A stretch of 64,000 nucleotides of DNA from an uncultured Bacteroidales bacterium (lineage in GTDB: Bacteria > Bacteroidota > Bacteroidia > Bacteroidales > Bacteroidaceae). The DNA is taken from assembly GCA_902800925.1 (NCBI GenBank), contig CADCGD010000004.1, forward strand, positions 48,495 through 112,494, in the 5' to 3' direction. Shown piece after piece: positions 23,553-61,377 of the stretch. A program made the translations under genes and the position numbers. The notes under the pieces are model-generated. The model searched no databases. It saw only the letters and a list, made by a program, of their open reading frames with translations, and had not been told where the DNA came from. Position 1 is the first letter of the stretch. Each line of letters opens with the position of its first letter.

Positions 23553-24548
23553 ATGGCGGAAGCAGACTTTTCACTTTTCACTATTCACTGTTCACTTCTA
23601 ATAGGCTGGTTCCTCGACCTGCTCATTGGCGACCCTGCATGGCTGCCCCATCCCGTTGTAGGTTTTGGCAAGATGATAGCCTTTGGCGAGCACCACCTCA
23701 ACAATGGCCGCTATCGCAAAGTGAAGGGTGCCCTCATGGCTATCATCTATATAATAGGTATATTTGTTGCCGTGTGGTTCCTGCGCACTATACTATCCTC
23801 TCACCTCTCACCTCTCGCCACTCACCTCTTCGACACAGTCGTCATCTTCTTCTGCCTCGCTGGCACAACGCTTATCCGTGAGGTACGACAGGTATTCCTT
23901 GCCCTTGACCGCTCACTTGACGAAGGCCGCAAGCAGGTGGCCCGCATCGTAGGGCGCGACACCTCCGAACTCTCTGCCCAAGAGGTGCGCACAGCAGCTT
24001 TAGAGACGTTAGCTGAGAATCTCTCCGATGGCGTCATTGCCCCACTCTTCTGGTTTGCCATCCTTGGTGTTCCAGGTATGTTGGCCTATAAGATGGTGAA
24101 CACCCTCGACTCCATGATTGGCTACAAGACTGACCGCTATCGTGATTTCGGCTGTTGGGCAGCCCATATCGACGACATCGCCAACTACATCCCTGCCCGC
24201 CTCACCGCCCTGCTAATGGTTTTAGGTGATTGGTGTTGGGTATCAGGTGTTAGCCATCACCTATCAACCATCACCCAACACCTTCATTTCGTCCGTCAGA
24301 ACGGACGAAATCATGCCTCGCCCAACAGCGGTTATCCAGAGGCAGCATTGGCAGGCATCCTCAACTGTCGATTTGGCGGTCCCCATTATTACTTCGGTCA
24401 ACTCTTCGATAAACCCTTCATCGGCACCAACGAACGCCCACTAAACACTGACGACATGAAAAAAGCCGTCCAGATAAACAGAACGGCAGAAGTATTGATG
24501 GTAGTAATCGTTAGCTGTTGGCTATTAGCCATCACAGGCGTTTCATGA
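23553..24548 (+). CDS. cbiB: Adenosylcobinamide-phosphate synthase CbiB
   Basis: This 331-residue inner-membrane protein attaches aminopropanol (phosphate) to cobyric acid. Family marks: WFLDLLIGDPAWLPHPVVGFGKMI, LAENLSDGVIAPLFWF, YKMVNTLDSMIGYKTDRY, HASPNSGYPEAALAG. Three repeat-derived stretches are embedded: the N-terminus DFSLFTIHCSLL (TTCACT words), residues SSHLSPLATHL (CTCACCT words) and GVSHHLSTITQHL (a palindrome). The last 17 bases overlap the convergent gene at 24532-25749. It ends the cbiA-cobQ-cobD-cbiB operon. Confidence 0.93.
   Translation: MAEADFSLFTIHCSLLIGWFLDLLIGDPAWLPHPVVGFGKMIAFGEHHLNNGRYRKVKGALMAIIYIIGIFVAVWFLRTILSSHLSPLATHLFDTVVIFFCLAGTTLIREVRQVFLALDRSLDEGRKQVARIVGRDTSELSAQEVRTAALETLAENLSDGVIAPLFWFAILGVPGMLAYKMVNTLDSMIGYKTDRYRDFGCWAAHIDDIANYIPARLTALLMVLGDWCWVSGVSHHLSTITQHLHFVRQNGRNHASPNSGYPEAALAGILNCRFGGPHYYFGQLFDKPFIGTNERPLNTDDMKKAVQINRTAEVLMVVIVSCWLLAITGVS
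23569..23600. repeat. TTCACT word repeat encoding the CbiB N-terminus
   Basis: Four imperfect TTCACT(N) copies directly after the start codon encode SLFTIHCSLL, which extends the first membrane helix. A similar TTCACTATTCACTTTTC run occurs upstream of psd near 36830-36850. Confidence 0.6.
23794..23829. repeat. CTCACCT heptamer repeat inside cbiB
   Basis: About four to five copies of a CTCACCT/CTCGCCA heptamer encode SSHLSPLATHL between two membrane helices. The same heptamer, on the coding strand and in the same reading frame, occurs in cobT at 26851-26880. Confidence 0.65.
24232..24282. repeat. Nested palindrome inside cbiB
   Basis: GGTGTTGGGT at 24232-24241 pairs with ACCCAACACC at 24273-24282, and AGGTG at 24245-24249 pairs with CACCT at 24258-24262. 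It encodes the loop VSGVSHHLSTITQHL just before the conserved SPNSG motif. The frame is kept. Confidence 0.6.
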
Positions 24549-26498: not shown

Positions 26499-27644
26499 TT
26501 AGAAGTATTTCGTAATCTTCGCATTGTCGAAGTTGTTCATTTCGTTCATCATGCGGACAGCAGAGTCGACGATGGGAAAAGCACAGAGGGCACCAGTACC
26601 CTCGCCAAGGCGCAGGCCAAGATGCAACAGGGGCTTGGCGTTCACAATGTCGAGCATGCGCTTGTGACCACTCTCGTCACCACAATGGGTGAAGATCATG
26701 TAGTCCTGGACGGCAGGATAGAGGCGAATGGCAGCAATGGCACAGGCCGTCATGATGAAGCCATCGACTAATATGATCAGATGTTGCTCGGCAGCACGAA
26801 GCATAGCACCAATGGCAGCTACCATCTCGAAGCCACCGAAGATTCTCAGGGGTGAGAGGTGAGAGGTGAGAGGTGAGAGGATAGACTGATAGCGGGCAAC
26901 TGCCTGAGACAAAATCTCGTATTTATGACGAATGCCATCGTTGTTGAGGCCAGCGCCTGCACCAATACACTCATCCAAAGGGATGTTGCCAAAGAGGTGC
27001 ATCCAGATGCTGCTGGGCGATGTGTTAGCAATGCCCATCTCGCCAATGCTGAGTACACGACAGCCCTCAGCAACACAGTCATCGACTAAATCAACGCCAA
27101 CCTGGATGGCTTTATCAAATTCTTCTTCGCTCATCGCTGGCTCATAGAGGAAATTCTTGGTGCCATAGGCTATCTTGCGGTCAAGGAATAATGTAGAGTG
27201 TTGAGTGTAGAGTGTAGAGTTTGCTACCGCCTTAGTGTCTGCGCTTCCTTCGGTGGCGGTAGCAAACTCTACATTCTCCGTTCTACACTCTAAACTATAG
27301 AAATCGTAATCCACGCCAACATCCACCACACGAAGTTTGAAACCATGCTGTCGGCAGAACATATTAACCCCTCCACCACCACGTGTGAAGTTTATCATCT
27401 GTTGCCAAGTGACCTCACGAGGTGAAACGCTGACGCCCTCACGCTCAATACCATGATCGCCACCTAAAAGCAGGTGGCAGGGATGCGCCAGCGATGGTTC
27501 CAGCGTCTGCTGAATCAGGCATACCTGCATGGCTAACTCTTCCAAACGGCCCAACGACCCCTTGGGCTTGTTCAGGTTATCTATTTTTTCCTGAATGGCT
27601 GTTTTCAGAGATGTATTAACAGGTTGTATATCGAATGCTTTCAT
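26499..27644 (-). CDS. cobT: Nicotinate-nucleotide-dimethylbenzimidazole phosphoribosyltransferase CobT
   Basis: The ATG at 27644, which overlaps the cobU stop (ATGA), gives 381 residues; conserved family sequence begins there (IQEKIDNLNKPKGSLGRLE). The enzyme activates the lower-ligand base as alpha-ribazole phosphate. Motifs: LLLGGDHGIEREGVS, VVDVGVDYDF, KIAYGTKNF, SIGEMGIANTSPSS. Two additions are out of keeping with the usual 340-355 residue family: about 35 residues at 118-153, encoded by the palindromic element shared with cobU, and SPLTSHLSPL at about 257-266 from a heptamer repeat. Both fall in loops between conserved blocks. Confidence 0.94.
   Translation of the reverse strand: MKAFDIQPVNTSLKTAIQEKIDNLNKPKGSLGRLEELAMQVCLIQQTLEPSLAHPCHLLLGGDHGIEREGVSVSPREVTWQQMINFTRGGGGVNMFCRQHGFKLRVVDVGVDYDFYSLECRTENVEFATATEGSADTKAVANSTLYTQHSTLFLDRKIAYGTKNFLYEPAMSEEEFDKAIQVGVDLVDDCVAEGCRVLSIGEMGIANTSPSSIWMHLFGNIPLDECIGAGAGLNNDGIRHKYEILSQAVARYQSILSPLTSHLSPLRIFGGFEMVAAIGAMLRAAEQHLIILVDGFIMTACAIAAIRLYPAVQDYMIFTHCGDESGHKRMLDIVNAKPLLHLGLRLGEGTGALCAFPIVDSAVRMMNEMNNFDNAKITKYF
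26851..26880 (-). repeat. Perfect GGTGAGA heptamer array inside cobT
   Basis: Four perfect copies of GGTGAGA plus GG lie in tandem (coding strand: CTCACCT words). They encode SPLTSHLSPL right before the conserved FGGFE motif. The same heptamer occurs in cbiB at 23794-23829. Confidence 0.8.
27191..27295 (-). repeat. Palindromic in-frame element, copy 1 (in cobT)
   Basis: A perfect 19-bp inverted repeat (27213-27231 with 27255-27273) encloses a 23-base loop and is flanked by TGTAGAG/CTCTACA words. On the coding strand it reads as ECRTENVEFATATEGSAD then AVANSTLYTQHSTL. Copy 2 in cobU has almost the same DNA and peptide. Confidence 0.88.
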
Positions 27645-28228
27645 TTGATTTTCATTTCTATTCCACTTACCATCAGTATCACTTCGTCTGCTTTCTGTGC
27701 AATATACTGGTTCATCCAACCTTGCAGGTCCGTGAACTTGCGCTGGAGAGCATTGTCGCTGACTCCACCTAAGCCTATCTCGTTGGTCACAAAGATATAA
27801 GTAGCATCATGCTGGGTAAAGGCATCGAACTCACGCTTGGCCAATTCAAGAATAGAGTGGAGAGTGGAGAGTGGAGAGTTTGCTACCGCTGCAAAGTCTG
27901 CGCTACCTTCGGATGCGGTAGCAAACTCTCCATTCTCCGTTCTACACTCTGCATTATAAAGAAGATTCGTCAGCCACAGCGTCACGCAGTCGATGACCAC
28001 TACCCTACCCGTCAGGTCGTGACGGCTAAGGTATAGCTCTTCCTCGATGTTCGTCCACTCAGGTCCACGACGCTCCTGATGGCGACGAACCCGTTCACGA
28101 AACTCATCGTCCCATACATGGGCAGTAGCCAGATAGACAGGATTCGTGCTCAGACTCAGCGCCAAGGCCTCAGCTTTCTCGCTCTTGCCAGAGCGCTGAC
28201 CACCAGTAATAAGGATTATCTTCTTCAT
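27641..28228 (-). CDS. cobU: Adenosylcobinamide kinase / guanylyltransferase CobU
   Basis: With the ATG at 28228 (ATGA overlap with cobS) the protein has 195 residues. It phosphorylates adenosylcobinamide and then adds GMP. The P-loop GGQRSGKS is at residues 9-16; VIDCVTLWLTNLL and FVTNEIGLGGVSDN are family motifs. About 35 residues at 92-127 (starting ECRTENGEF) interrupt the usual loop after TNLL and come from the palindromic element shared with cobT. Without the insert the protein would be about 160 residues, a little under the usual 170-180. Confidence 0.94.
   Translation of the reverse strand: MKKIILITGGQRSGKSEKAEALALSLSTNPVYLATAHVWDDEFRERVRRHQERRGPEWTNIEEELYLSRHDLTGRVVVIDCVTLWLTNLLYNAECRTENGEFATASEGSADFAAVANSPLSTLHSILELAKREFDAFTQHDATYIFVTNEIGLGGVSDNALQRKFTDLQGWMNQYIAQKADEVILMVSGIEMKIK
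27851..27957 (-). repeat. Palindromic in-frame element, copy 2 (in cobU)
   Basis: A perfect 18-bp inverted repeat (27872-27889 with 27915-27932) encloses a 25-base loop. The coding strand gives ECRTENGEFATASEGSAD then AVANSPLSTLHSIL. Compared with copy 1, the stem differs at TGGAGAG versus TGTAGAG, with the matching change in the other arm. Confidence 0.88.
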
Positions 28229-37623: not shown

Positions 37624-38328
37624 ATGAAGCTACTCAATATTCCAAATATCATCACTTGCCTGAATCTGATTTCGGGTTGCATAGCCACCTTTTGGGCATT
37701 CCAAGGCGACTACCGCATGGCATTGCTATTCATCATTATCGGTGCCGTTTTCGATTTCTTCGATGGTATGGTAGCGCGCCTGTTGCACGTTTCCTCCCCT
37801 ATTGGCAAGGAGCTCGACTCATTGGCAGACGACATCACCTTCGGTTTTGCCCCCTCTGCCATCATCTTCAGCTACCTGAACGAGTCCTGTGCGGCAGCAA
37901 ACTCTACACTCTGCACTCTACACTCTATACTTCCGTTCGTGGCATTTATCCTCGCAGCCTTCTCAGCATTACGCTTGGCAAAGTTCAACCTCGATGAGCG
38001 TCAGGCTTTGGGATTCATCGGACTGCCCACTCCTGCCAACGCCCTCTTCTGGGGAGCGCTGATTGGTGGTTTGCAGGGCTACGACATCCATTTCGAGGGT
38101 ATCGAGTGGTGTATCATTGCAGGCATCTTCATCAGCAGCTACCTGCTGATTAGCGAAATACCAATGTTTGCCCTAAAGTTCAAGACATGGGGCTGGAAGG
38201 GCAACGAGATCAAATACATCTTCCTGCTGACCTGCATACCGATGCTCTTTCTGGGCATCTTCGGACTGGCCGCCATCATTGCATGGTATGTCATCCTGTC
38301 AGCAGTAAATACCTATATGTTAAACTAA
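37624..38328 (+). CDS. pssA: CDP-diacylglycerol-serine O-phosphatidyltransferase
   Basis: The ATG at 37624 gives 234 residues starting with MKLLNIPNIITCLNLISG, the usual opening. The CDP-alcohol phosphatidyltransferase motif is complete: DG (47-48), AR (51-52), G61, D65 and D69. The enzyme makes phosphatidylserine for Psd. About 15 residues near 88-103 (AANSTLCTLHSIL) lie in the loop between helices and match the second half of the palindromic element of cobT and cobU. Confidence 0.95.
   Translation: MKLLNIPNIITCLNLISGCIATFWAFQGDYRMALLFIIIGAVFDFFDGMVARLLHVSSPIGKELDSLADDITFGFAPSAIIFSYLNESCAAANSTLCTLHSILPFVAFILAAFSALRLAKFNLDERQALGFIGLPTPANALFWGALIGGLQGYDIHFEGIEWCIIAGIFISSYLLISEIPMFALKFKTWGWKGNEIKYIFLLTCIPMLFLGIFGLAAIIAWYVILSAVNTYMLN
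37891..37932 (+). repeat. Half copy of the cobT/cobU palindromic element in pssA
   Basis: GCGGCAGCAAACTCTACACT and the following ACTCT words match one arm plus the flank of the element, in coding orientation and in the same reading frame (AANSTLCTLHSIL versus AVANSPLSTLHSIL). The other arm is absent. Confidence 0.75.
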
Positions 38329-41093: not shown

Positions 41094-41165
41094 TTTCGAT
41101 GTTTCGATAGTTCGATGCTTCGATGTTTCGACGTTTCGACATTTCGATGTTTCGAGGTTTCGACC
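41094..41165. repeat. Octanucleotide array A (pyrH-birA)
   Basis: Nine tandem 8-base units of the type TTTCGATG. They are the reverse complement of the CGAAACAT units in arrays B and C, so birA is bounded by the same repeat in opposite orientations. Confidence 0.85.
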
Positions 41166-41966: not shown

Positions 41967-41974
41967 CAAGACAT

Positions 41975-42056
41975 CGAAGCCTCGAAATATCGAAACATCG
42001 AAGCCTCGAAAAGACTCGAAATATCGAAGCATCGAAATATCGAAACATCGAAACAT
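41975..42056. repeat. Octanucleotide array B (birA to four-helix-bundle gene)
   Basis: Ten CGAAACAT-type units with one 2-base phase slip after the fifth unit. It begins nine bases after the birA stop and ends 17 bases before the next ATG. Confidence 0.88.
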
Positions 42057-42073
42057 CATAAAATAAAAAAACA

Positions 42074-42821: not shown

Positions 42822-42997
42822 CGACGCATCGAAACCTCGAAACATCGAAACATCGAAATATCGAAACATCGAAGCCTCGAAACATCGAAACATCGAAATA
42901 TCGAAACATCGAAATATCGAAATATCGAAACATCGAAGCCTCGAAACATCGAAACATCGAAATATCGAAACATCGAAATATCGAAATATCGAAATCT
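42822..42997. repeat. Octanucleotide array C (up to the tadA start codon)
   Basis: Twenty-two exact-length 8-base units (CGAAACAT, CGAAATAT, CGAAGCCT types) with no spacer. A higher-order period of eight units (64 bases) is visible: units 6-13 match units 14-21 except in the last. The array ends one base before the ATG of tadA, so it forms the ribosome-binding region. Confidence 0.93.
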
Positions 42998-61213: not shown

Positions 61214-61250
61214 ATTTGTTCTTCTTTTACGACAACTTGGTTATTTTTTT

Positions 61251-61377
61251 TAAGACAACTTGGACAACTAAAACAACTTAGGACAACTCTTTTGTAGGCT
61301 AATATCAATGTTCTCTGCAAGCAGAGTGTGGCGTTGCATTGTCCAATGTTGTCCTAAGTTGTCCAAGTTGTCTTAAA
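61251..61377. repeat. Nested inverted repeat between the GH97 gene and pulA
   Basis: A left arm (61251-61288) made of GACAACTTGG / GGACAACT words is mirrored by a right arm (61349-61377) with the same sequence minus about nine bases. A second hairpin, CTCTGC-AA-GCAGAG (61314-61327), lies between them. It could be a transcript hairpin that tunes pulA relative to the GH97 gene. Confidence 0.65.

Follow-up and report, generated by a model that had tools for sequence, protein, structure and literature searches.

The analyzed window is a 64,000-nucleotide stretch of contig CADCGD010000004.1 (GCA_902800925.1, positions 48,495 to 112,494 of the forward strand) from an uncultured Bacteroidales bacterium. 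It contains the neighboring cobamide genes cobT and cobU, each of which carries a copy of one palindromic DNA element in frame (Table 1). An earlier note, made from the letters of this DNA, had described the two copies as a near-identical element encoding a common peptide, and re-reading the window bears out its account of their sequence, coordinates, orientation and frame, of perfect inner stems of 19 and 18 bp around loops of 23–25 nt, and of a compensated stem change (TGTAGAG versus TGGAGAG). The two elements form a direct repeat of 106 nt with 85% identity (start-to-start spacing, 659), and their inverted arms reach outwards to 44 nt in cobT (84% complementary) and 36 nt in cobU (89%). RNA of the coding strand folds in silico into strong hairpins of −51.3 (cobT) and −58.3 kcal/mol (cobU), with z scores of −10.3 and −10.8 and 0 of 200 shuffles as stable; the note had proposed such folding as a check. 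Both elements are read in the same frame, and alignments of the CobU and CobT sequences to solved chains are interrupted at both inserts.

Table 1 Positions of host genes, palindromic elements and related repeats in the window
Feature	Position	Strand	Details
cobT, host gene	26499..27644	-	PF02277 DBI_PRT, E 3.6e-124; start = ATG at 27644 (chosen)
cobU, host gene	27641..28228	-	PF02283 CobU, E 8.2e-53; start = ATG at 28228 (chosen)
Full palindromic element in cobT	27188..27298	-	arms 27188-27231 and 27255-27298, 23-nt loop
In-frame peptide of cobT element			SLECRTENVEFATA-TEGSADTK-AVANSTLYTQHSTLF
Inner box TTTGCTACCGC, cobT copy	27220..27230	+	opposite-strand partner 27256-27266
Full palindromic element in cobU	27851..27957	-	arms 27854-27889 and 27915-27950, 25-nt loop
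In-frame peptide of cobU element			AECRTENGEFATA-SEGSADFA-AVANSPLSTLHSIL
Inner box TTTGCTACCGC, cobU copy	27879..27889	+	opposite-strand partner 27915-27925
Second heptamer array, (GGTGAGA) x 4.3	26851..26880	-	in frame in cobT, reads LSPLTSHLSPLR, loop of about normal length
Half unit (one arm, box TTTGCTGCCGC)	37891..37931	+	in frame in phosphatidylserine-synthase-like gene (name from sequence), reads AAANSTLCTLHSIL

The element is dispersed through the genome from which the window comes (an assembly of 2.72 Mb in 66 contigs, 82.9% complete). A DNA search with the cobT copy returned 43 matching stretches, counting the two strands of each palindrome separately, and the core AATTTGCTACCGC, allowing one mismatch, occurs at 46 sites in the assembly, compared with 1 for the reversed pattern. 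Together with the presence of copies in many genomes, this contrast rejects chance or an assembly artifact as the explanation. The assembly holds at least 11 full copies, 9 of them in frame in genes, as well as single arms. The nine hosts are cobT, cobU, ArgS and genes for asparagine-synthetase-like, TPR, M3-peptidase-like, MurF-like, AcrB-type transporter and GH2-like proteins (names are readings of sequence, except where Pfam was run). The placement in frame in unrelated genes, which the earlier note had seen in two copies and likened to the palindromic elements of Rickettsia, therefore holds well beyond the cobamide genes; a lack of further copies, which by the note would have told against a mobile element, was looked for and not found. 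Of the remaining copies, one (L012) stands at a frame junction ahead of an AraC-type domain, and one (L022) lies outside any open reading frame (ORF) of 100 aa. A further box pair (G000:C37:5193/5235) was located by pattern. Single arms occur in or before other genes, including a HisS-like gene. In L017, L019 and L021, a single arm ends right before a start codon (box, then ATG), and such arms may supply leader or start-region sequence. A CarA-like gene (L014, G000:C23) carries two inverted single arms around ~28 native-looking residues, and in L222, where a single long ORF continues into a CarB-like part, that part contains a full copy.

Among 200 genomes of the genus, including the window's own, 98 have at least one match to AGAGTTTGCTACCGC with up to one mismatch, although a genome with a single hit does not exceed the reversed control (0–2 per genome); 53 genomes have at least three, and the maximum is 66. 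When the cobU copy was used as query against 60 genomes, 15 matched, namely its own and 14 of 35 others of the genus, with some matches confined to the heptamers, and 0 of 24 genomes from other families of the order did. Comparison of these copies defines the unit as a run of heptamers ending in TTTGCTACCGC, with a full copy consisting of two such units inverted around a loop; single arms exist too. The constant part is the heptamers and the box, and the loops vary. Thus, the near-identity described for cobT and cobU is true of that pair, whereas the loop they share is not general; likewise, the arm-encoded parts of the proposed common peptide are conserved and its loop-encoded part is not.

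The copies within genes are read in one phase. We collected 53 distinct full palindromes from the fetched loci, a non-random sample, and 33 of them lie within an ORF of at least 100 aa. In 32 of these 33, from 12 genomes, the element is read as EFATA...AVANS, flanked on either side by 70 or more aa of ORF; in the exception (L061), the ORF, which runs only 5 aa past one end of the element, is unlikely to be a gene. In the coding copies, 19–40 nt separate the two boxes, and this gap equals 1 mod 3 in 32/32, versus 10/20 copies outside ORFs (p 1.2e-5), in a comparison in which the coding copies include orthologs (four in ArgS, two in fucosidase-like genes and two in genes for a MATE-like transporter) and 13 of the 20 copies outside ORFs come from one genome (G034). 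The phase used is stop-free in 32/32 coding copies, partly by definition, and the other two coding phases are stop-free in 0/32 and 1/32. For the 20 copies outside ORFs, the same phase is open on either strand in 9 when 20 nt of arm on each side is considered and in 1 when 30 nt is considered; a copy that disrupts a gene would be scored as outside ORFs, making the openness of coding copies partly circular. As far as their sequences tell, the coding copies carry arms freed of stops, and the inserts would therefore be read through as ~33–40 extra residues. Presumably, the insert is translated and the host proteins remain functional. In 24/32 coding copies, the antisense RNA of the host gene folds more stably (p 1e-4, a value overstated because the copies are related), and in the window's two copies the antisense-strand pairing has fewer interruptions.

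The inserts are absent from the orthologs that we read of both host genes. For CobU, we read the 30 best loci from a search of 80 genomes of the genus, and the element is missing from all 29 outside the window's genome, where the site is a variable, mostly short loop. CobT is present in 26 of these 30 loci, and the element is missing from all 25 outside the window's genome; the insertion site there holds ~4–6 residues (such as SxVPG) in 23/25 and a slightly longer loop in L197. An ancestral loop of cobT or cobU, which unrelated sequence of the same length across the family would have indicated, is accordingly rejected for the orthologs read, and the earlier proposal of an insertion survives this comparison. 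One CobU ortholog (L186) carries nearly 30 additional residues at the insertion site, in a loop of unrelated sequence, and in one CobT ortholog (L196) another insert, nearly 40 residues long, occupies the insertion point; these sites thus tolerate inserts in general. Heptamers similar to the GGTGAGA array in a second CobT loop (Table 1) build the arms of S23 genes in relatives (L104 and L143). Arm-like sequence also stands in this second loop in relatives L200, L201 (VANSKLYTLNSTQ) and L202 (GSKFSTLHS), and the loop may therefore be another hot spot.

ArgS also has a tolerant site, a hot spot for inserts. A match to ArgS was found in 182/200 genomes and the best 30 loci were read; the query contained the element, and copy-bearing loci therefore rank first among the 30. 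In these loci, one variable loop between RSILRK and KE(I/V)ELIQK takes the inserts. By eye, clear TTTGCTACCGC palindromes are present in four (L324, from the window's genome, L325, L327 and L328), degenerate palindromes in L326 and L331, a single arm in L334 and L347, different repeat runs elsewhere (for example, L329, L330, L343 and L351), and unrelated palindromes in L338, L344 and L342. The site is common to the window's genome (G000) and G034, and their heptamers are unlike. One old insertion preserved unchanged accounts less well for these sequences than a tolerant loop at which insertion or replacement has happened repeatedly, or arms that have changed in concert. The palindrome-like inserts of L338, L344 and L342, and others seen by eye in frame in other genes (L002 and L003), read SSPEGDT...EAPSGAVG, PLRKEGG...LPLEGLGE or SPNPSPKGEG; protein loops seem to host several repeat families that are unrelated to one another.

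A candidate parent comes from copies in which the inverted boxes are far apart. In L057, they lie 400 bp apart, start to start, and enclose a 134-codon ORF that encodes an S23/IVP protein (PF05635, E 7.5e-28; best solved relative 2rld, E 1.9e-36). Box spacing also predicted S23: two further pairs ~400 bp apart, chosen among the matches listed, both proved to enclose it when 364 ORFs were searched with an S23 model built here (G179:C112, E 2.1e-41; G197:C7, E 8.4e-41). The gene between the shared arms is S23 and not a known transposase. PF05635 is present in 48/60 genomes, the window's own included. Scoring inverted repeats within 350 bp on each side at a fixed threshold of at least 15, we find inverted arms around 48/73 S23 domains in a first set, versus 0/346 random segments from the same loci and 28/3000 in the window; in an enlarged, de-duplicated set, they surround 119/160 domains (113/153 where both flanks are available). 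The TTTGCTACCGC box itself adjoins 20/160 S23 domains, on both sides in 19, and 0/532 control places. The heptamers of the palindromes, GTGTAGA, GTGGAGA and GTGAAGA, recur in the S23 arms, with different ones in L115 and in some others. The complete elements L057 and L215 adjoin protein-coding ORFs, and the window's copies lie in cobT and cobU and none in a 23S rRNA helix. The dispersed in-frame palindromes thus have the arms of stand-alone S23 elements, which identifies a likely parent that was absent from the earlier interpretation.

The type of arm follows S23 phylogeny. On a tree of 158 S23 sequences (107 columns, built by a quick method, with many forks unresolved), the 20 box-bearing tips require 5 changes, compared with at least 16 (mean 19.1) in 1000 shuffles, and other S23 clades own inner ends of their own, such as TATGATTA(C/G) or GACAATA, as judged by eye. 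Searching GTDB representatives with a profile of box-bearing S23 yielded 583 relatives. We kept the best 80, a few of which overlap the set of 160; by the same score, inverted arms are present at 59 of these 80 loci, from several phyla, and at 1/279 controls. By record title, the armed loci include Prevotella, Tannerella forsythia (L431), Alcanivorax jadensis, Propionigenium maris, Accumulibacter and clostridial, verrucomicrobial and patescibacterial sequences; many are metagenome bins, so single organism names may be wrong. Another Tannerella forsythia locus (L416) has no arms.

Copies are also associated with their cognate S23 at the level of genomes. We chose 20 copy-rich genomes from 29 with at least nine hits (leaving out G000, G013, G022, G023, G031, G034, G105, G107 and G169) and 20 copy-free genomes among nearly complete ones (97–99%), a choice that works against an association. 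Among the S23 flanks read, box-bearing S23 is found in 14/20 copy-rich and 1/20 copy-free genomes (p 3.9e-5), or in 12/20 and 1/20 (p 4e-4) when three loci fetched for a nearby box are removed, in tests that are not independent because the genomes are related. Counted per S23 domain, the box is present in 16/55 versus 1/34, or 13/52 versus 1/34 (p 0.007) without the three box-fetched loci. For six of the omitted copy-rich genomes, S23 flanks were read; box-bearing S23 is present in G000, G023 and G031, and was not found in G013, G022 or G034. A link to reverse transcriptase finds no such association: RVT_1 is not enriched (9/20 copy-rich versus 14/20 copy-free genomes, p 0.2), and we reject it.

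We therefore consider it probable that the cobT and cobU palindromes are miniature, gene-less copies of a mobile S23 hairpin element, with S23 likely helping its movement. A complete element would consist of a heptamer arm, the inner box, the S23/IVP gene, the inverted inner box and the inverted heptamer arm, and would stand on the chromosome outside rRNA, akin to the intervening sequences of rRNA. Miniatures, presumably derived from complete elements, would retain the two arms around a short loop (19–40 nt in coding copies), and would in this genus have settled in frame within loops of many conserved proteins. S23, an Avd-like four-helix bundle by our reading, could recognize the hairpin of its own clade and take part in moving it, acting as the mobilizer.

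Several observations weigh against this model. We saw no movement and could define no target duplication; TA is seen by eye at many element ends, and in a reading by eye for target-site duplications, orthologous sites were too diverged and loops varied. S23 is not known to have catalytic activity. By the score used, 41/160 S23 domains lack arms. In the window's genome, which has six PF05635 matches, the sole boxed one (L115) has other heptamers, and in G034, with 41 box hits, neither of two PF05635 matches (L091 and L128) is boxed. Comparison by eye of miniature loops with the interiors of S23 elements found no evident match, and the idea that the loops are remnants of those interiors was dropped. 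The genome-level association is weakened by the relatedness noted above and by uneven sampling, S23 flanks were read for part of those in the 40 genomes, and G118, one of the genomes classed as copy-free, has a variant box together with a copy in frame (L314). Moreover, the Y1_Tnp transposase domain shows an association of its own, being found in 15/20 copy-rich and 6/20 copy-free genomes (p 0.01).

This last result keeps alive a reading in which the palindromes are elements of the repetitive extragenic palindromic (REP) or bacterial interspersed mosaic element (BIME) kind, or miniature inverted-repeat transposable elements (MITEs), moved in trans by a REP-associated Y1 transposase, with S23 genes as passengers that share the hairpins. 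The inner box on the other strand, GCGGTAGC, contains GTAG, which an excerpt of PMC3733652 gives as the tag of one REP superfamily. The association with Y1_Tnp is weaker than that with box-bearing S23, however, and many of the Y1 hits are weak or partial. The 3.4 and 1.7 kb read at the two Y1_Tnp loci of the window's genome (L009 and L010) contain no box, leaving Y1 as a parent unsupported by these flanks, and S23 genes of other clades have inner ends that, by eye, lack GTAG. On balance, we regard mobilization by Y1 as unlikely.

The repetitive nature of the arms suggests another possibility in which there is no mobile element at all: heptamer minisatellites could expand by slippage and turn palindromic by fold-back DNA synthesis, with S23 landing in or beside the arrays. 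Among 114 arms of at least 22 nt (periods 5–10 tried), the period is 7 in 86, 8 in 20, 9 in 4 and 10 in 4; many arrays in the window are non-palindromic, heptamers vary between genomes, and, according to an excerpt of PMC6749651, some of the most abundant bacterial satellite families stem from heptamer or hexamer repeats and non-coding satellites rarely transpose. Slippage does not account for the non-repeat box shared at 46 places, for full palindromes inside genes that are unrelated, for the way in which box-bearing tips cluster on the S23 tree or for the inverted S23 arms in several phyla, making this origin quite improbable in our judgment. Finally, that the inserts are excised from RNA or bypassed in translation, giving host proteins without the peptide, would fit the strong RNA hairpins and the excision of 23S rRNA intervening sequences by RNase III described in an excerpt of PMC4990558, but is very hard to credit, because neither process requires the stop-free, frame-keeping gap of 1 mod 3 found in 32/32 coding copies and because such excision, in the same excerpt, leaves the RNA fragmented and so would break an mRNA.

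More broadly, and tentatively, S23/IVP elements might be a widespread class of transposase-less mobile elements built as tandem-heptamer hairpins, and a source of rRNA intervening sequences, of much dispersed heptamer-repeat content in several phyla and of in-frame palindromes; this generalization of the S23 model is possible, although we would not yet lean towards it. The S23 elements also offer a candidate source for in-frame palindromic insertions, and the copies provide a natural set of enzymes that apparently tolerate foreign loops of more than 30 residues, namely ArgS, MurF-like, CarB-like, CobU and CobT proteins.

Other repeats in the window include arrays of the kind that flanks S23 genes elsewhere. 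An ORF at 23553–24548 contains in-frame heptamer arrays of ACTTTTC (23566–23597) and CCTCTCA (23797–23829), which read SLFTIHCSLLI and SSHLSPLATHL. Octamer arrays based on CATCGAAA, with up to 21 copies, lie at 41094–41163, 41971–42057 and 42827–42994. At 61249–61377, GACAACTT-type repeats form inverted arrays 60–87 nt apart (perfect over 21 nt, 88% over 25 nt), a further palindromic element of another kind.

To our knowledge, in-frame palindromic insertions are known mainly from Rickettsia. The palindromic elements of that genus (Ogata et al. 2000, 2002) are, in an excerpt of PMC10969869, ~150 bp long and lie in frame in unrelated metabolic genes, encoding a conserved peptide. The family described here resembles them in placing palindromic repeats in frame in unrelated genes (32 ORF copies in one phase) and differs in its heptamer-run arms, its single arms and its candidate S23 parent, a comparison made by description. 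The Rickettsia elements are not known to have such a parent. With the GTAG class of REP sequences and their transposases, as excerpted in PMC3733652, the family shares dispersed palindromes and the GTAG within the inner box; it differs in its long heptamer arms, its frequent location inside genes and the lack of a box at the two Y1 loci checked. With MITEs, the family shares a short length, terminal inverted repeats and multiple copies. Cyanobacterial short tandemly repeated heptamers (STRR) are likewise dispersed heptamer arrays, some of which may resemble S23 arms. The S23 family is named in a figure legend of PMC10910872, and an excerpt of PMC10053308 likens PF05635 to Avd, a protein essential to retrohoming in diversity-generating retroelements; the absence of reverse-transcriptase enrichment in copy-rich genomes sets the present elements apart from those systems.

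Among the titles and abstract openings of the literature matches listed, a scope outside which most subscription journals and preprints fall, we found no S23 elements with heptamer arms outside rRNA and no such palindromes described in Bacteroidota, which falls short of proof of novelty. The closest parallel is with the intervening sequences of 23S rRNA. There, according to an excerpt of PMC4990558, S23 lies between stem-forming inverted repeats, and heptameric repeats stand just before the S23 start in Coxiella; the same excerpt, from 2016, calls the origin and function of rRNA intervening sequences unclear and their mobility only a hypothesis. The complete elements found here likewise place S23 between stem-forming inverted repeats (119/160 in the set of 160 domains and 59/80 in the wider one); the window's copies themselves contain no S23. 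Unlike the rRNA sequences, the elements read here are found next to or within protein genes; they are dispersed, and gene-less miniatures accompany them. A free-standing gene-in-hairpin architecture in several phyla, together with dispersed miniatures that share its arms, makes the hypothesis of intervening-sequence mobility directly testable.

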